A stretch of DNA of 64,000 nt from Pseudoxanthomonas winnipegensis (GTDB lineage Bacteria > Pseudomonadota > Gammaproteobacteria > Xanthomonadales > Xanthomonadaceae). Shown one piece after another: positions 22,654-30,376 of this stretch. How positions within the stretch are numbered: position 1 is the first letter of the stretch; each line of letters begins with the position of its first letter. Both the position numbers and the translations under genes were made by a program. The stretch lies in assembly GCF_004283755.1 (NCBI RefSeq), contig NZ_SHMH01000003.1:310001-374000 (forward strand). The letters run 5' to 3'. The notes beneath the pieces were generated by a model, which searched no databases, was not told where the DNA came from, and was given only the letters and a program-made list of their open reading frames with translations.

Positions 22654-23048
22654 TGCGTGCCTCTGCGCTGGACCCCTTCATCGGGCGTGCCTACGACCCG
22701 GATTCGTTTGACTGCGTGGACCTGGTTCGCGAGGCATCGCTGGCGCTTTTCGGCCGCCACATCGAGTTGCCCGGCGGCCACCCGCGCGGGCTTAAGCGGC
22801 TGCCGATGGTGTCGTCCGTGGCGCGCCAGCTTGCTGTGCCCACCGACACGCCGCGCGACGGCGACCTGGTGCTGATGTTCGACCGTGGGCTGGCCGTGCC
22901 GACCCACGTTGGGCTCTACTTTTGGCTTGCGCATCGGCCTTGGGTGCTGCATGTCGGCGCCGGCGTGCCGTTCAGCACGACGCACGCTGCAGCAGACCTG
23001 CCGAAGTTCGGCGCCAAGATCGAAGGAATCTACACGTGGGCGTCATGA
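22653..23048 (+). CDS. Tail tip NlpC/P60 peptidase, gpK-like
   Basis: The 131-residue product shows NlpC/P60 cysteine-peptidase motifs: the nucleophile Cys21 in DSFDCVDLVREA, His85 in PTHVGLYF and a further His in VLHVGAG. In lambda gpK the peptidase domain is C-terminal to a JAB domain; here only the NlpC/P60 part is present. It probably opens peptidoglycan during DNA entry. The gene is coupled on both sides (TGATG-like and ATGA overlaps). Confidence 0.8.
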   Translation: MRASALDPFIGRAYDPDSFDCVDLVREASLALFGRHIELPGGHPRGLKRLPMVSSVARQLAVPTDTPRDGDLVLMFDRGLAVPTHVGLYFWLAHRPWVLHVGAGVPFSTTHAAADLPKFGAKIEGIYTWAS

Positions 23049-26000
23049 CTCCCCTCGTTGTCACACCGCACCCGATCCTGCTGGATAACCAGCGGAGAGA
23101 ACAGTGGGCCCTCCAGCCCGGCGAAAGCCTGTACGCGTTCCTGCAGCGGCACGTGCCGGACCTGGACGGCAAGCCGTGGCGCGTGACCATCGGCGGCCGC
23201 GAGATCCCTCGGCACATGTGGCACCTGGCCCGGCCGAAGAACGGTCACGTGATTGAGGTGCGCGGCGGCCTGGGCGACAACGCTCTGTACTACATCGCCA
23301 TGGCGGTGCTGATTTACTTCACCGCCGGCGCTGGTGCCACATGGGCCGGTGGCTTGAGTACCGCGCTCGGCGTCAGCACCAGCGTGATCTACAGCGCGGC
23401 ATTCATCGCCGGCTCCATGCTGATCAATGCGGTCCTGGCGCCCAAGCCGCCCAGTGCCAGTGGCGCGGCCTCCAAAGACAGCGTCTACAACATCGGTGCA
23501 GCCCGCAACGCGATGCGGCCCTACGAGCCGTTCGCGCTTGTGTTTGGCGAGGTCCGCAGCACGCCGGATTACCTGGCCCAGCCCTATACCTACTACGAGG
23601 GCAATAAGCAGTACGTGGCAATGCTGTTCCAGCCTGGCCTGAACTGCGAATCGATCGGGCCGCTGTACAACGGCGACGCGCTGCTGAGCAGCTTCGATGG
23701 GGTGTCGACGTGGTACGCCGGATTCCCGGGCATGCCCGAACAGGACATCCCGATCTACAGCAACGTCGACACCATCGACGGAGCGGAGCTGCCCACGACC
23801 AAGGCCTGGGTCCAACGCACGACCAGCGCGAACACGGTGGCGGTGCAGATCAACCTGGAATACATGCTGGGTGGCACCGGCACCAGCGGCAAGGAATACC
23901 AGGTCAGCGAGACGGTCGAGGTGCAATACAGGCCGGTGGGTGCGTCAGCCTGGCAGCCACTGTTGACGCGCACATTCACAAGCAAGGACCAGACCACGGT
24001 CCGTCGCACGACGCTGTCGGCGGACTTGCCGCGCGGCCAGTACGACCTGCAGGCGCGCATCCGCGGCGACGGCAACTACGAGGGCAAGAACCAGCAGACC
24101 AACAAGTTCCAGTGGACCACCCTTGGAAGCGTCCAAGCCGACGATGCCGATTACACGGGCATCCCTCGCATCGGTGTGCGCATCAAGGCTACCGGCCAGC
24201 TCAACGGCTATCCAGACGAAATCCGTGGCGTCGTCCGGGCTGAGCCGTTGCCGATCTGGAATGGCACCACGTGGGCGACCGCAACCGACCGGGCCAGTGG
24301 CCTGTCCAACCCCGGCGCCCAACTGCTCAAGTACGCACGTGGCCACGCGATCGTTAAGGCGGGCAAGACCATCCGCTATGCCGGCCTAGGCCTGACCGAT
24401 GACATGATCGACATCGAAGCCCTCAAGGGCTTCATGCTCCACTGCGCGGCCAATGGCTATACGTACGATTACATCGTCAAGGACGCCAAGTCCCACGACG
24501 AGGTGTGCAACACGATCGCGTTGGCCGGGATGGGCGAGATCAGCTGGGCCGGCGGAAAATTCTCCGTCGTGTGGGCCGGCGCCGACCAGCCCGTCAGCGG
24601 CGTGGTCAACATGGCTACCATCAAGAAGTCTAGCTTCAGGCTCGACTACTCGCTTGTGTCCGCGGCCGACGGCATCGAGTACACCTACTTCGATCGGGAC
24701 ACCTGGTCCAGCCAGACCATCTACGTCAACGCTCCAGGCGTGGAGGTGGCGCTCAATCCGGCCAAGGTATCGGGCGAGGGCGTCACCAGCGCAGTGCACG
24801 CGGCGCGGATGGCCCGGTATCACCTGGCCCAGAGCCTGTACCAATACAAATCGATCAGCTATGACACTGATCTGGAACACATGACCTATAGGCGGATGTC
24901 GGTGCTGCCGCTACAGCATGACATGACCCAGTGGGGTTACGGTGGGCGCCTGACGGCTTCTTCTACCGCGAGCGGTGTCACCAGGCTGTCTCTGGACGAG
25001 GCTGTGCCGCCGCCGGCAGAGGGCAATGCCTACATCGGTGTGCGTGTGCCGGGCGAGCGGGTCTACCGGGTTCTGCAGGTGCGCAGCTTCGGCGCGCAGT
25101 CGCGCGATATCGAGCTGGCCGAACCTTGGCCTGGGGATGCCGCTCTCCCCGGGGTCGAAAAAGAAGCGCATGACTACATCTGGATCTACGACTTCAAGCA
25201 GACCCCGGGCTATCGCGTCCGTGTCACAAGCATCGAGCCTCAGTCGGACCTCAAGGGAGCCAGCATCAGGGTTGTGCCGGAGAGCGATGAGTTCTGGGAT
25301 TATGTGATTGACGGCACGTACCGGAAGCCGGACAACCAGAGTCTGCTGCAGACCAAGCCTACAGCAAGCCACCTGGTGGTGACCGAATCGCTGGTCGTGC
25401 AGGGCGACACCGTCTTCACAGAATTGGTCGCTACCTTCGATGTAAGCGGCCCGGTTGGCGTTACGCGCGCGTACTGTGATACCGATGGCAATGCCGAGTT
25501 GGAGCTGGTCGCAGAGACCACCGGCCGCACGGCGCGCTGGCGCATCCCGGGCGCCGGCACTTATCCGATCACTGTGCGCCCATACAACCTCGATGGTGAG
25601 GCTGGGACTGCCGTCAGCCTGATCTACACAACCCAAGGCGCCGATGCGCCGCCGGTGCTGGTGGACACATTCACGGTCGAAGAGTTGTCGGGAGGCGTTC
25701 GCCGGTACTCTTGGGGCTATAGCGACGACACGATCCAGTCGGCCGACTTCGCCGGCGTGGAGATCCGCTACACCGCCGGGAGCGTCACCGCGCCGGCCTG
25801 GGAGACCATGACGCCGCTCGGAGACACCGGCTACCACGCCGCGGCGTTTGAGGCGGTCCTGCCGGCCTCTGGAACTTGGACGTTTGCCTGCCGCTCGCGC
25901 AACACAAGCGGCACGCTGTCCCCCGATGCCAGGATCGTCACTCAGACGCTCGGCGCGAACCTGGGCGAGCAGCTGGGCGCTATCGGCGACGAAGCCGCCG

Positions 26001-29000
26001 ACGCGAGCCAGAAGGTGACGCAGGAGATCATCGACCGCTTCAACGCCGACGCCGCGGCGATCGCACAGGCCGCGCAGGACGCGACGGACAAGGCCAACGC
26101 CGCGCGCGACGCGGCCATTGCCCACGCGGACGTGATCGGTGCCCAGGTCGCCGACATCATCGGTGCTGATGAGTGGGTGAGCGGCAAGGATTACCCGGCG
26201 GGCGATCTGGTCAAGCACAATGGCACACTGTACCGGGCGCTGCGGGCGAACAACAGCGTCGAGCCCGGCGCGAGCGGCAGCGGCAACGATTGGCAGTCGG
26301 TCGGCAACTACGACTCGCTGGGCGAGGCCGTGGCGGCCAGCATTTCCATGGGTACCGCCAACGCCTCGGCCATCGCCAGCGAGGCCCAGCAACTCGATGC
26401 AGTCCAGGCCCGCATGCCTGCTGGCGCCGGGCAGCTCGCCACCCAGGCGTCAGTACAGGAGGAGGTCAGCGCACGCACTACTGCTGTGCTGAGTGTTGCC
26501 AACAGGACAGCCGCCGTTGAAGCGCGCATGCCCACCGGGACGGACAAGCTCGCGAACGAAGCGCGCGTCGTGGCGGCGGAGACCGCCAGTGCGGGGCGGG
26601 ACACAGCCCTGGGCGAGCGCGTCGATGGTGTTCTCGCCAAGCTGCCCGCTGACGGTGGCCGAGCCGCATCGGAAGCGACGGTGACCGCCTACGACCACGC
26701 CAGCGCGACGCGCGATGAGGCACTCGGTTTGCGCGTGGATGGGGTCACCGCAGCGATGCGGGCGCCTTATGTTGCCGTGCTCGGCTGGGATTTTCAGGGC
26801 ACGCTGTCAGGTTGGCAGACTGCCAACATCTCCACCGCGTTCTTCCCAATCAACGGCGGTGACCACGGCGCCGCTGCTCTGGAGTCGACCAACAACGATC
26901 CTCAGCTGTATCGCATGGATCTCAATTTCAGGGGATCGACGGCTTACATCGTCCGCGCGCTTGTTCGCCGTCGAAACGGATCCGCTCCGTGGGATCTCCG
27001 GTTGTTCTGGGGCACGCCTTCGCACGGGCTGGACGGCAATCATCAGGCAGTCGGCGATCACACCCCGGCGTCTGGTGGTGCGTACGAGGTCGTGACTTGG
27101 GACATGTCAGGCGTCGCCGATTGGCTGGGCAACAACATAACTCAGCTGCGCTTCGATTTTGCTTCAGCAAGCGGTGACATTGCTGACGTTCAGTGGATCT
27201 CCATCGGCACGTATGGATCGTCAACAACTGCGCAGGCCACGAGTCTTTTGCAGTCCCAGGTCGGCGACCCGAACACCGGCCTGGCCGCGAACGCCGCCGC
27301 TATCACCCAGGTGAAAGCGACATCCGCTGGCGGTGGAAATATCTTGCCAAACCCTACCGCGGAGGGCGATCTGACGGGCTGGATCTTCATCGTTAACAAC
27401 TGGAACGCAACGCTCACGCGCAACCTTGCGGCACCGGATTGGGTACCTGGCGGTGGCTCTAACTTTGGCTGGACTGTGGGCGGAACACCCTCAAGCCAAA
27501 GCGTTGTTCGGTCGGCTAGGTTTCCAATCGATAACACCCAGTATTACCAGGCCAGCGTTTATACCGGCGCGCACCGTTGCATGATCAATATGTCGTTGGT
27601 GTTCCTTGACGCCAATGGCAACGGCGTCGATGAGATTTACTCGTCAGTGACCAACAACGCCGAAGCCGCCGGCGGTCGTTCGCTATCTGGGTACAAACGG
27701 CTCTACACCGCGCCGCGCAAACCGCCGGCTAGCGCAGTAGCGGCGACGCTGCAGATTTTTGGTGTCGCGAACGGTGGCAGCGATCCATATGTGTTCCTGA
27801 CGCAGGCGATGGTTGAGGTTGTCACCGCGTCCAAGACTACGCCCTCTAGTTGGTCGCCGAGCAGCCAAGGCGTCGATTCGAAATACGCCTCTGCCACCCA
27901 AGCGCTCAGCGTCAGCCTCAACACCCTGACCGGCCAGTTCAACGCTACGTACACTCTTAGCCTGACAGTGGGAACGCTTGTTTCTGGCTGGCAGTCAGTC
28001 AACAACGGTTCGCGCACGTCTTTCGATGTGCTGGCTGGTTACTTTAACGTGGTGGACCCAGTCGATGCGTCGCACCTGTTGAGCTACAGCGGGGGGAACC
28101 TGACGATCACGGGTGTGATGAAGTCCTCCTTGCTCCAATCGTCTGCGATGGAGATTGGGTCGACTCGCATCCACACCGGGGGCGGGCGTCTTGCGCCGTT
28201 CAGCATCCAAGATGTCTCGTTCTCCAGCATCGACGGTAGCGGGTGGCAGAACTTCACCCAGTCCTGCGATGGCTTCATCGGGCCTGGATACGGCTCCGGA
28301 TATAGCGGGAAGAGGTTTGCTGCACAGCGGATGGATGTCTTCCTGGACGTGCTTTGCGCTGGCAGCCGTAACACAGAGACCCTGGTGCTTGAGGTTCAAT
28401 ACGACGGCGGAGGTTGGACACAGATCACGACGGTCAACATGGATGTAAGCAATAAGGCGATGATCCCACTCTTGCTTCGCTACACCACGCAGGATAGTTG
28501 GAGCACTGTCGCGTTCCGTGCTCGCACGACGCAAGGGAACTCGCAGGCCCTTTCATTGAAGGTGAGCGTTAACAACTACAACCAGTCCAGCAATGCCGCG
28601 GAAAGCAACTCCGGACGCTCCAGGGCTGGCAGCGGCGGAGGGACAACGCCTACGAATCCAACCAACCCTGGGCAGTGCGTCGATTGGGAGACCTCGGTAC
28701 TGCCGGATGGCCGTTACGTGCGCGATCTCCAGGTCGGCGACCTAGTCGAATGCTTCGACGTGGCGACGGGCGAGATCGCCGAGCACCCGCTATTGGCGAT
28801 GGGTGAGGGTGCGGAGGATTGCTTCATTGTCCTGACGCCCAATGGCACAGTGATCCAGTCGCGCTCGACGCCGATGGACATGCGGGATGGGACCGTCTGC
28901 AGGACCGACGACCTAGCGGGCAAGGAGGTCTATGCCCGCGAGGCCGGCTGGGAGGCTTGCCAGACCCACTTCATCGGCCCCAGGCGCGTATGCAAGCCCG

Positions 29001-29086
29001 ACCTGGGCAACCGGATGTTCTTTGCCGGCACAATGGCTACCCGCACGATCGCGACCCACAACATCCAGTACAAGCCGGACCCGTGA
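23045..29086 (+). CDS. Tail tip attachment protein J-like (TipJ) with C-terminal Hint-like domain
   Basis: The 2013-residue protein starts with a beta-grasp gpI-like segment (about 15-80: QPGESLYAFLQRHVPDLDGKPW...) and a membrane-like Gly/Ala stretch (about 85-140), then the J core (YNIGAARNAMRPYEPFALVFGEVRSTPDY). Fibronectin-like segments follow, a coiled coil at about 975-1040, a chitin-binding-like module (EWVSGKDYPAGDLVKHNGTLYRAL, about 1043-1070), three imperfect ARMP repeats, and two jelly-roll-like segments (about 1240-1390 and 1434-1605). The end (Cys1878 to 2013) resembles a hedgehog/intein domain: CVDWETSVLPDGRYVRDLQVGD and a terminal His2005-Asn2006. It determines host binding. ATG 23045 overlaps the K-like stop. 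Confidence 0.9.
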   Translation: MTPLVVTPHPILLDNQRREQWALQPGESLYAFLQRHVPDLDGKPWRVTIGGREIPRHMWHLARPKNGHVIEVRGGLGDNALYYIAMAVLIYFTAGAGATWAGGLSTALGVSTSVIYSAAFIAGSMLINAVLAPKPPSASGAASKDSVYNIGAARNAMRPYEPFALVFGEVRSTPDYLAQPYTYYEGNKQYVAMLFQPGLNCESIGPLYNGDALLSSFDGVSTWYAGFPGMPEQDIPIYSNVDTIDGAELPTTKAWVQRTTSANTVAVQINLEYMLGGTGTSGKEYQVSETVEVQYRPVGASAWQPLLTRTFTSKDQTTVRRTTLSADLPRGQYDLQARIRGDGNYEGKNQQTNKFQWTTLGSVQADDADYTGIPRIGVRIKATGQLNGYPDEIRGVVRAEPLPIWNGTTWATATDRASGLSNPGAQLLKYARGHAIVKAGKTIRYAGLGLTDDMIDIEALKGFMLHCAANGYTYDYIVKDAKSHDEVCNTIALAGMGEISWAGGKFSVVWAGADQPVSGVVNMATIKKSSFRLDYSLVSAADGIEYTYFDRDTWSSQTIYVNAPGVEVALNPAKVSGEGVTSAVHAARMARYHLAQSLYQYKSISYDTDLEHMTYRRMSVLPLQHDMTQWGYGGRLTASSTASGVTRLSLDEAVPPPAEGNAYIGVRVPGERVYRVLQVRSFGAQSRDIELAEPWPGDAALPGVEKEAHDYIWIYDFKQTPGYRVRVTSIEPQSDLKGASIRVVPESDEFWDYVIDGTYRKPDNQSLLQTKPTASHLVVTESLVVQGDTVFTELVATFDVSGPVGVTRAYCDTDGNAELELVAETTGRTARWRIPGAGTYPITVRPYNLDGEAGTAVSLIYTTQGADAPPVLVDTFTVEELSGGVRRYSWGYSDDTIQSADFAGVEIRYTAGSVTAPAWETMTPLGDTGYHAAAFEAVLPASGTWTFACRSRNTSGTLSPDARIVTQTLGANLGEQLGAIGDEAADASQKVTQEIIDRFNADAAAIAQAAQDATDKANAARDAAIAHADVIGAQVADIIGADEWVSGKDYPAGDLVKHNGTLYRALRANNSVEPGASGSGNDWQSVGNYDSLGEAVAASISMGTANASAIASEAQQLDAVQARMPAGAGQLATQASVQEEVSARTTAVLSVANRTAAVEARMPTGTDKLANEARVVAAETASAGRDTALGERVDGVLAKLPADGGRAASEATVTAYDHASATRDEALGLRVDGVTAAMRAPYVAVLGWDFQGTLSGWQTANISTAFFPINGGDHGAAALESTNNDPQLYRMDLNFRGSTAYIVRALVRRRNGSAPWDLRLFWGTPSHGLDGNHQAVGDHTPASGGAYEVVTWDMSGVADWLGNNITQLRFDFASASGDIADVQWISIGTYGSSTTAQATSLLQSQVGDPNTGLAANAAAITQVKATSAGGGNILPNPTAEGDLTGWIFIVNNWNATLTRNLAAPDWVPGGGSNFGWTVGGTPSSQSVVRSARFPIDNTQYYQASVYTGAHRCMINMSLVFLDANGNGVDEIYSSVTNNAEAAGGRSLSGYKRLYTAPRKPPASAVAATLQIFGVANGGSDPYVFLTQAMVEVVTASKTTPSSWSPSSQGVDSKYASATQALSVSLNTLTGQFNATYTLSLTVGTLVSGWQSVNNGSRTSFDVLAGYFNVVDPVDASHLLSYSGGNLTITGVMKSSLLQSSAMEIGSTRIHTGGGRLAPFSIQDVSFSSIDGSGWQNFTQSCDGFIGPGYGSGYSGKRFAAQRMDVFLDVLCAGSRNTETLVLEVQYDGGGWTQITTVNMDVSNKAMIPLLLRYTTQDSWSTVAFRARTTQGNSQALSLKVSVNNYNQSSNAAESNSGRSRAGSGGGTTPTNPTNPGQCVDWETSVLPDGRYVRDLQVGDLVECFDVATGEIAEHPLLAMGEGAEDCFIVLTPNGTVIQSRSTPMDMRDGTVCRTDDLAGKEVYAREAGWEACQTHFIGPRRVCKPDLGNRMFFAGTMATRTIATHNIQYKPDP

Positions 29087-29131
29087 CTGGCCGTCGCAAT
29101 CCGGGAGACCGCCAGCCGGCATCATGCCGGC

Positions 29132-29470
29132 ATGAAGACGAACCCTGGAAAGGCGCAATGGGCAGTTCGCCGAGCGGTCGAATTGGAACGACAGGCTGCC
29201 GAGCTGGCAGGTGAGGCCGGTGGTGAGCAGGTCGCAATGCTCTTGGATCGCGTGGACGGCGGGTGGTTCGCTCGCCTGGAGTGCCAGAAGGGCGGAGTCA
29301 GCGAGCCGTTGGTCACGAGGCGCTGCTCGAGCTACGAGGCCGGCAAGCGCGGGTGCGAGCTGTGGGCAGCCCGGCACGAGGCCAGGCTGCGTGCGGAGGT
29401 GGCGGAGAAGATACGGAACCGCCCTGTGCACAATGGCGCCGGCGGGTGGAGTCGGCCCGGGGAGAAGTGA
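29132..29470 (+). CDS. Hypothetical protein after tail genes
   Basis: The 112-residue product (KTNPGKAQWAVRRAVELERQAAELAGEAGGEQVAMLLDRVDGGWFARLECQKGG...) is rich in Arg, Glu and Ala, probably helical, and has no recognised domain. A GCCGGCATCATGCCGGC palindrome ends one base before its ATG and could hide the ribosome binding site or be an operator. It is the last gene before the terminator at 29577 and is probably the last gene of the prophage late transcript. Confidence 0.55.
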   Translation: MKTNPGKAQWAVRRAVELERQAAELAGEAGGEQVAMLLDRVDGGWFARLECQKGGVSEPLVTRRCSSYEAGKRGCELWAARHEARLRAEVAEKIRNRPVHNGAGGWSRPGEK

Positions 29471-29977
29471 CCGGGTAGCGGCTGGGCATCCCAGAATCTC
29501 CCCAGATTTCCCGGAAACCTCGCAGCGGCGGCCTTATAGATTCCGGCTCCGGGCACCAAGTGGCATGCACAGGTGAAAAGCCCCGAGAGATCGGGGCTTT
29601 GTCGTTTGAGCGCGCGTTGCGAAGGCGATCTCATGCGGTGCGGGCCTGTTCGAGCTTCGTGCGGCGTGGCTGCGCTGTCTCATGATCCGATGTTGACGAT
29701 CGGAGGGCTAGGTTGGCTTGTGTTCCTGGCCTCTGGAGCGCCCCGATGAGCGCGATGCGCTTGTGCTGCCGCCGTATCGCGCGAGCGGCGCCGAGCAACC
29801 GCCGGAAAAGGACGGAAATGCGAGCGTCGAGACGGGTTCGGCTCACCGCGAGCGGCCAGGGCACTTTGTCCGGTGTGCGAAGGAACTGGGTTCCGTCTGC
29901 CGTTGGTGAGGAACTCATCCCCGCAACCCGAAGCCGTTGGCTGCGCCGAATTCCGAGACGGACGTTAGGAGAACGCG
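29471..29977. other. Right prophage border region, no firm gene
   Basis: This 507-base stretch holds a strong hairpin terminator (29577-29600) and then DNA without a convincing gene up to the host-type gene at 29978. A 95-codon minus-strand frame (29631-29918) is open but shows no family and no good ribosome binding site. The attachment site should lie here, but its sister copy is outside the window, so it cannot be placed. Confidence 0.5.
29577..29600 (+). terminator. Intrinsic terminator at end of prophage late genes
   Basis: AAAGCCCCGA (29577-29586) and TCGGGGCTTT (29591-29600) form a perfect ten-pair stem with loop GAGA; the A and T runs in the arms make it work in both directions. Confidence 0.85.
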
Positions 29978-30376
29978 ATGAGCATGAAGACCAGGTTCAA
30001 CGCCATGGCCAAGAAGGCGGCCTACGCCGCGGGCACGCCCTGGGCCTTCGGGACGGCGGCGCTGGCGGTGGTGCTCTGGGGCTGCAGCGGTCCGGTGTTC
30101 GGGTTCAACGACACCTGGCAGCTGGTCATCAATACCAGCACCACGATCATCACCTTTCTGATGGTGTTCCTGATCCAGCACACCCAGAACGCCGATACGG
30201 CGGCGATGCAGATCAAGATCGACGAGCTGATCAATGCGACGCGCGGCGCGAACAATGCCCTGCTGGATCTTGAGGAACTGGACGAGCAGGCGCTGGAAGA
30301 GCTGCGCAAGAAGTACGAGGAGTTGGCCAGAGAGGCGCGGGATCGAATGGGTCGGACCCGCTCGGATACGACCTGA
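29978..30376 (+). CDS. Low-affinity iron permease family membrane protein
   Basis: The 132-residue product has two membrane segments (FGTAALAVVLWGCSGPVFGF and LVINTSTTIITFLMVFLIQHTQN) joined by FNDTWQ, followed by a charged cytoplasmic helix (DTAAMQIKIDELINATRGANNALLDLEELDEQALEELRKKYEELA). This is the pattern of the bacterial PF04120 'iron permease' family; the ISTTIITFLMVFLIQ...QNRD-like signature is clear. Despite the name, iron transport is not shown for short bacterial members. AGGAGAACGCG sets the start. It stands alone and marks the return to host DNA. Confidence 0.85.
   Translation: MSMKTRFNAMAKKAAYAAGTPWAFGTAALAVVLWGCSGPVFGFNDTWQLVINTSTTIITFLMVFLIQHTQNADTAAMQIKIDELINATRGANNALLDLEELDEQALEELRKKYEELAREARDRMGRTRSDTT

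Follow-up and report, generated by a model that had tools for sequence, protein, structure and literature searches.

Among the prophage genes on a 64,000-nucleotide stretch of Pseudoxanthomonas winnipegensis DNA (contig NZ_SHMH01000003.1, positions 310,001 to 374,000 of the forward strand; hereafter the window) is a gene for a J-like tail tip protein that ends in a predicted Hint (hedgehog/intein) domain, which raises the question of what a module of the self-processing type is doing at the end of a phage tail and whether it is still active. We know of no part for autocatalytic Hint processing of tail-tip proteins in the lambda-like tail assembly pathway. Residue conservation and a structure model make it fairly likely that this tail tip ends in a Hint domain that still processes itself, in a family whose chemistry has changed. 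The family is apparently undescribed so far, and the domain probably either severs itself from the tail protein or attaches the tail to something else.

The C-terminal Hint domain of the tail tip protein

The J-like protein matches PHROG 31 (central tail fiber J) with an E value of 1.3e-147 and also has a Pfam FNIII-A_GpJ match, and tape measure and minor tail genes lie upstream of its gene in the window. Its final 136 residues have Cys1878 first and ATHN-IQYKPDP last. The features are listed below, where counts refer to 64 full-length copies of the domain (31 in a first set and 33 in a second) and to two further copies from one genome, G1277 (G numbers denote genomes and L numbers loci).

23045..29086, + strand: gene for the J-like tail tip protein (central fibre; 2013 aa), which bears the Hint domain (translation, PHROG, Pfam)
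28628..28675, + strand: Gly/Thr/Pro linker GSGGGTTPTNPTNPGQ, with Gln at -1 (translation)
28676..29062, + strand: Hint domain, residues 1878-2006
28676..28678, + strand: Cys1878, block A nucleophile position, invariant in 64/64
28859..28870, + strand: block B Ser1939-Arg-Ser-Thr1942, at the place of Thr-x-x-His, Ser invariant in 64/64
29057..29062, + strand: His2005-Asn2006, block G, invariant in 64/64
29063..29083, + strand: C-terminal tail IQYKPDP, after the Asn (translation)
29072..29074, + strand: Lys2010, tail lysine at +4, with a tail Lys in 31/31, 33/33 and 2/2 copies

The initial annotation of the window, made from sequence alone, had described the Cys1878 start, the altered block B, the His-Asn end and the Gly/Thr/Pro linker, all of which are correct in the translation; Gly-rich stretches also precede the Cys in many Hint-domain homologues, as the linker does in the window. 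It had also claimed a Hint fold and had set beforehand that a structure prediction lacking it would count against the claim, and the horseshoe Hint fold is indeed predicted for the domain (AlphaFold model, Foldseek). The top Foldseek match is BIL2 of Tetrahymena (PDB 6y75, 6tmm) at 12-13% identity, and the linker side of the model, residues 1-15, has a predicted local distance difference test score (pLDDT) below 50. Scans of the domain against Pfam, NCBIfam and PHROGs gave only weak, scattered matches, and a plasmid collection gave no match. Kinship with BIL domains by sequence amounts to one BIL chain, 2lwy, as a weak match at E 0.59 in a search made without a BIL reference set. The sole phmmer match in the PDB with the single sequence, 6xi1 (E 5e-4), was set aside, being the sum of four repeats of which the best alone has an E value of 7. 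The fold-level assignment to Hint stands despite the absence of a block B Thr-x-x-His, since exceptions are described among known domains (in parts of PMC7765530 and PMC7664689).

Conserved reaction residues and a tail lysine

An alignment of the 64 full-length copies contains only five invariant columns, namely Cys1, the block B Ser, a Pro, and the His and the Asn, and a further three Gly columns and one Val column are conserved in at least 90% of rows. In an alignment of 25 rows the mean column identity is 38%, with the fixed positions being the reaction residues and a few Gly, Pro and Val. The initial annotation had made its proposal depend on the conservation of Cys1 and His-Asn among homologues, and both are conserved: the first residue, the nucleophile position of the Hint superfamily, is Cys in 31/31 full-length first-set copies and 33/33 second-set copies (one set by hand), and the end is His-Asn in 31/31 and HHN in 33/33. 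Block B reads Ser-x-x-Thr or Ser-x-x-Ala rather than Thr-x-x-His in all full-length copies. The His place is occupied by Thr in 27/31 first-set copies (one read by eye) and by Ala in 4/31, and the second set has the Ser in 33/33 and Ala at the His place in 33/33 (five by eye). A Cys, Ser or Thr at +1 occurs in 2/64 copies only, one Ser and one Thr, both from the first set, and in 0/33 of the second. A decayed-looking ORF (open reading frame) in phages PhiXhv-16 and Ep032 is without the block A Cys, the His-Asn and a Lys in its last residues; it is free-standing and sits directly behind a Hint-tailed gene (L032 5372-5842, L033 5372-5842).

A Lys lies 1-7 residues past the Asn in 66/66 copies (31 from the first set, 33 from the second and two from G1277). 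Tails after the Asn are 4-10 residues long in 31/31 first-set copies, and seven in the window, and the Lys sits at +4 in 19 copies, +5 in five, +3 in three, +2 in three and +7 in one. The presence of Lys in 31/31 of these tails compares with 14% expected from the Lys frequency of the domain and with 18-26% among 222 other ORF ends from these loci. Having been seen in the first set, the tail Lys was then taken as a prediction for G1277 (2/2) and for the second set, which had been fetched by a scan with patterns inside the domain, the tail not being used; there it lies within +1 to +5 in 33/33 copies against 10% expected (+2 in 24, +1 in eight, +5 in one) and is kept even in tails of at least 20 residues. 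The possibility that the Lys is a by-product of the ribosome site of the next gene was rejected, as it lies many codons before the stop in L070, L072, L073, L078, L082 and others. Separately, Cys-rich C-exteins of 22-26 residues follow a His-Asn-x-Lys in L070, L072, L073, L078 and L083, which are viral contigs of 171-350 kb, and about 77 residues follow the domain in L082.

The residue before the Cys is W, F, Y or L in 15/31 first-set copies, all of which belong to the clade of the window or to G922, and is aromatic in 14/31 compared with 10/341 at the other 11 linker places. In a DnaB intein from which the block B His has been removed, a large side chain at -1 brings back the first step, as described in a section of Friedel et al. 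(PMC6333167). As a general substitute for the block B His, a bulky -1 residue was rejected, given its presence in 0/33 second-set copies, where G, C, A, S or R is found, and the Gln of the window.

Distribution and carriers of the domain

The domain occurs in bacterial genomes and in phages of several types. With the genome of the window included, matches were found in 7/199 relatives (single-sequence search), 5/398 genomes of the same order and 1/369 of the same class, the last being the genome itself. A wider model matched 4/398 genomes of a phylum set, namely the genome itself, G138, G922 and G897 (judged spurious). In another family of the same order 5/227 genomes matched, namely G138, G153, G406, the new G1277 and G205 (judged spurious); one more copy, in G004, was reached via its fibre. 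G922, from a different family of the Gammaproteobacteria, has four complete copies plus two fragments (L056 and L059-L063 are its loci), and in one fragment His-Asn has become His-Lys. Named phages with the domain are LucasX, XacN1, PhiXhv-12/15/16, DLP6 and Erwinia phage Ep032, and metagenomic viral contigs also carry it. Most copies with a known host are linked to Xanthomonadales, with G922 and, by record, Ep032 lying outside.

The first set was reduced from 36 distinct matches to 31 full-length copies by leaving out the fragments L062 and L063, the degenerate second ORFs of PhiXhv-16 and Ep032, and L058 of G897, which was judged to be an unrelated frame. From the G1277 search two copies were kept, while L066 (a motif-less protein) and L064 (which repeats G406) were excluded. 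The second set comprises 29 further loci with 37 ORFs, reduced to 33 distinct domains, one of which shares more than 95% identity with a copy in the first set. For L084 the Cys was placed by hand, and block B of 5/33 second-set copies and of L030 was read by eye. The 64 full-length copies form 40 clusters at 70% identity, 18 at 50% and eight at 40%.

Carriers of the domain fall into several kinds of tail or structural protein. J-type tips carry it in the window, L024, L034, L035 and L036. In L011, L025 and L027 the carrier is PHROG 376, a tail protein, which we take to be nozzle-like and podovirus-type, that is encoded by two ORFs and has the domain on the first; jumbo phages have the domain on proteins of the tail region, and the T4-like DLP6 on a predicted structural protein. 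J is unrelated to either half of PHROG 376 (best blastp E 0.89, different PHROGs), and yet the Hint domains of J and PHROG 376 carriers are 53-61% identical. In blastn of window positions 27001-30000 against loci with unrelated carriers, all matches fall inside 28675-29077, the match in L027 starting at 28676, the Cys codon, and those in L011 and L025 stopping at 29077, past the Lys-Pro. In the tree, the copies on PHROG 376 and those on window-type J proteins fall into one group (100/100; L022, which is labelled 'J' there together with several fibres, received no PHROGs family, and the tree was used for this grouping only). The match edge alone is weak, because the domain may be better kept than its surroundings, but together with the unrelated carriers it is taken as proof. 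The unrelated carriers, the confinement of the DNA match to the domain and the tree grouping therefore indicate that the cassette has passed from one tail gene to another, unrelated one.

The PHROG 376 gene was not split by the cassette, as the same two-ORF layout is present in the Hint-less Xanthomonas phages CP2, Olaya, 10KY502B and SAC (L041-L044). Four Hint-less phages were viewed out of 11 matching records, and the first ORF was translated in three (CP2, SAC, Olaya) and the second in CP2. The Hint-less first ORF of CP2, SAC and Olaya has a Gly-rich end at the same place, so that isolated phages live with a version of the protein whose end resembles the leftover of cleavage at the Cys. The comparison of presence and absence is possible for the PHROG 376 carrier only, because no close Hint-less relative of J was found when the pre-domain part of J was searched in other genomes and phages.

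In 8/29 second-set loci (L068, L069, L070, L072, L073, L075, L077 and L083), some of them near copies of each other, the domain terminates each of two adjacent genes; such pairs would suit cross-linking, although this is only suggestive. A downstream gene shared by all carriers was not seen in the 25 carriers compared, a weak negative given the crude picking of ORFs, several of which, such as those for G038 and L035, are probably in the wrong frame. A loosely conserved gene of about 140-170 aa lies downstream of the carriers in G153, G004, G406 and G138. PhiXhv-16 encodes another Hint-tailed protein of 313 aa (L040 3503-4444), followed by a 2OG-Fe(II) oxygenase gene; this protein has Thr at +1, and ordinary splicing chemistry is open to it. 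In DLP6, the unannotated ORF that ends in the domain (L030 1-1655) runs off the start of the linear record, whose ends may truncate the gene. In the J protein of the window itself, residues 1043-1071 (window positions 26171-26257) match the carbohydrate-binding module CBM_5_12 with 26.4 bits against a Pfam cut-off of 26.2.

Proposed chemistry, alternatives and known systems

The first step of the reaction must be helped otherwise than in most inteins, because the block B His is missing. In the pathway that we favour, Cys1878 would attack the preceding bond and take the tail protein as a thioester, helped by Ser1939 and Thr1942 or by the tail Lys, or alternatively, in the clade of the window, by a bulky residue before the Cys. 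Either water or an amine would resolve the thioester; the likeliest amine is that of Lys2010 behind the Asn, which would give an isopeptide bond, but one on another molecule could serve instead. Asn2006 would cyclise and release the Hint domain. In the virion, the linker would then form the end of the protein, with nothing attached or with the short Lys peptide or some other partner bound to it, and the phage might gain a trimmed tip, a branched terminus or a covalent bond with a neighbour. The best reading of the tail Lys gives it one of two roles: acceptor of the tail protein through an isopeptide bond, as with the Lys used by Tetrahymena BIL2, or stand-in for the missing block B His. A more specific proposal, which we put forward tentatively and consider doubtful as it stands, is a 'lysine-splicing' phage Hint family, in which, as the tail assembles, the C terminus of the tail protein is moved onto its own C-extein Lys, or onto a neighbouring amine of the virion or host surface, giving a branched isopeptide tail tip with self-excision.

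Several observations weigh against an active domain of this kind. The block B His, which is described as the most conserved intein residue in a part of PMC6333167, is absent from every full copy, and block F has no invariant Asp or His in the alignment columns. The position of the tail Lys shifts from +1 to +7, which is less expected of a catalytic residue, and the C-terminal tail is unresolved in the model (pLDDT below 50). A bulky -1 residue is absent in 16/31 first-set copies, in 33/33 second-set copies and in the window. The copies are related and the counts are not independent, as the first set forms three clusters at 35% identity (single linkage) and the second set a single cluster at 40%. 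The DNA match to the related J gene of L034 also starts at 28676.

The initial annotation had allowed for self-cleavage or ligation or else a dead remnant; the processing branch fits the data, and the remnant branch is made unlikely by conservation. The loss of the block B His is what a dead intein remnant would show, but Cys1, the block B Ser and His-Asn are strictly kept, with Cys1 and His-Asn present in 64/64 copies across 18 clusters at 50% identity, while truly decayed-looking copies (the second ORFs of PhiXhv-16 and Ep032 and the two G922 fragments) are clearly different, and a dead domain is therefore very improbable. It is unlikely, though less remotely so, that C-terminal cleavage is the only activity left, with the first step lost, Asn cyclisation shedding the short tail and the Hint domain staying on as a structural cap. 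The invariant His-Asn, the absent block B His and the tails of 4-10 residues in the first set are all compatible with such cleavage, which leaves unexplained, however, why Cys1 and the block B Ser are invariant and why a Lys is constant in a discarded tail.

A non-catalytic adhesion or folding module, in which the Hint fold serves as a binding head and the Cys, His-Asn and Lys are structural, is about as unlikely or slightly more so: its position on tail proteins, some of them host-contacting, and its restriction mostly to one host order where the host is known (G922 and, by record, Ep032 excepted) would suit this role, whereas the residues that stay fixed at 38% mean identity are those of the reaction and a few Gly, Pro and Val, and relatives of one carrier live without the domain. 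A further alternative is a selfish C-terminal element, which inserts at the ends of tail genes without cost because it cuts itself off, spreads by recombination and does the phage no service. The same cassette on unrelated carriers, including the 100/100 grouping of PHROG 376 and window-type J copies, and the neighbouring carriers in 8/29 loci speak for it, but a domain of about 130-160 residues has no room for a homing endonuclease, and all carriers with a nameable family are tail or structural proteins, a limit that a selfish element need not respect; we regard this as quite improbable. An active autoprocessing domain is the reading that we retain. The observation made in the initial annotation is confirmed and its interpretation supported, and the invariance of the block B Ser, the tail Lys and the presence of the cassette on unrelated tail proteins are additions to it.

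The hedgehog Hog domain keeps the block B motif and is not known to have a His-Asn end, and the phage domain has no sterol-recognition region, only seven residues following the Asn in the window. A +1 Cys, Ser or Thr, which class 1 inteins (Ssp DnaB, Npu DnaB, gp41-1) possess, occurs in only 2/64 phage copies; the phage domain differs further in having no block B His, no homing endonuclease and, in most copies, no long C-extein. Nor does the phage domain interrupt a host protein as class 1 inteins do: its tails have 4-10 residues throughout the first set, with some longer ones in the second, and the second half of PHROG 376 is a separate ORF that is also present in Hint-less phages. In inteins of the Tko CDC21-1 type, which are full inteins of an archaeal protein, the Lys lies inside the intein, whereas that of the phage family sits behind the Asn. 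The block B His is naturally absent from Tko CDC21-1 and Lys takes its part, according to a passage of PMC7765530.

A-type BIL domains share with the phage family a Hint domain in variable proteins and a His-Asn end without a +1 nucleophile (parts of PMC7765530 and PMC7664689), a combination found in the phage family with the two exceptions of 64 that have Ser or Thr. They have been described on bacterial proteins; the phage family sits on tail proteins of phages, lacks the block B His and retains a Lys in its tail. BIL domains without a +1 nucleophile give mostly cleaved products, as reported in sections of PMC7664689 and also PMC7765530. BIL2, from the BUBL1 locus of Tetrahymena thermophila (PDB 6y75, 6tmm), shares the Hint fold, Cys1 and the C-terminal Asn (Asn143), and links its N-flank to a Lys through an isopeptide bond, as described in section 2.4 of PMC8616854. 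It differs in having a catalytic His (H69, taken as the block B His), zinc activation and a position between eukaryotic ubiquitin-like domains, and its acceptor Lys lies in a folded partner, whereas that of the phage family lies in a short tail.

No family of Hint or intein-like domains on phage tails was found in the literature covered, most subscription journals lying outside that coverage; the related literature, in the portions available, treats inteins and Hint domains in terminase, reductase, helicase and other non-tail-tip genes. The word 'intein' occurs 0 times in the DLP6 paper, and the main texts on XacN1 and LucasX do not name the carrier as ORF231 (BBA65379.1 in XacN1) or LUCX_306. 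Virion proteomics data for XacN1 have been deposited as PXD008065, as stated in PMC5852040.

If the domain is active, it would represent a self-contained means to mature, cap or cross-link the tail at its tip that is common to several phage types, and if lysine-splicing is true, neighbouring Hint-tailed genes would, in some phages, yield covalently joined partners. Because such a Hint family retains Cys1, His-Asn and a Lys behind the Asn while the block B His is gone, it would offer a natural setting in which to learn how inteins manage when their most conserved residue is lost, and might provide a protein-ligation tool with a lysine acceptor.

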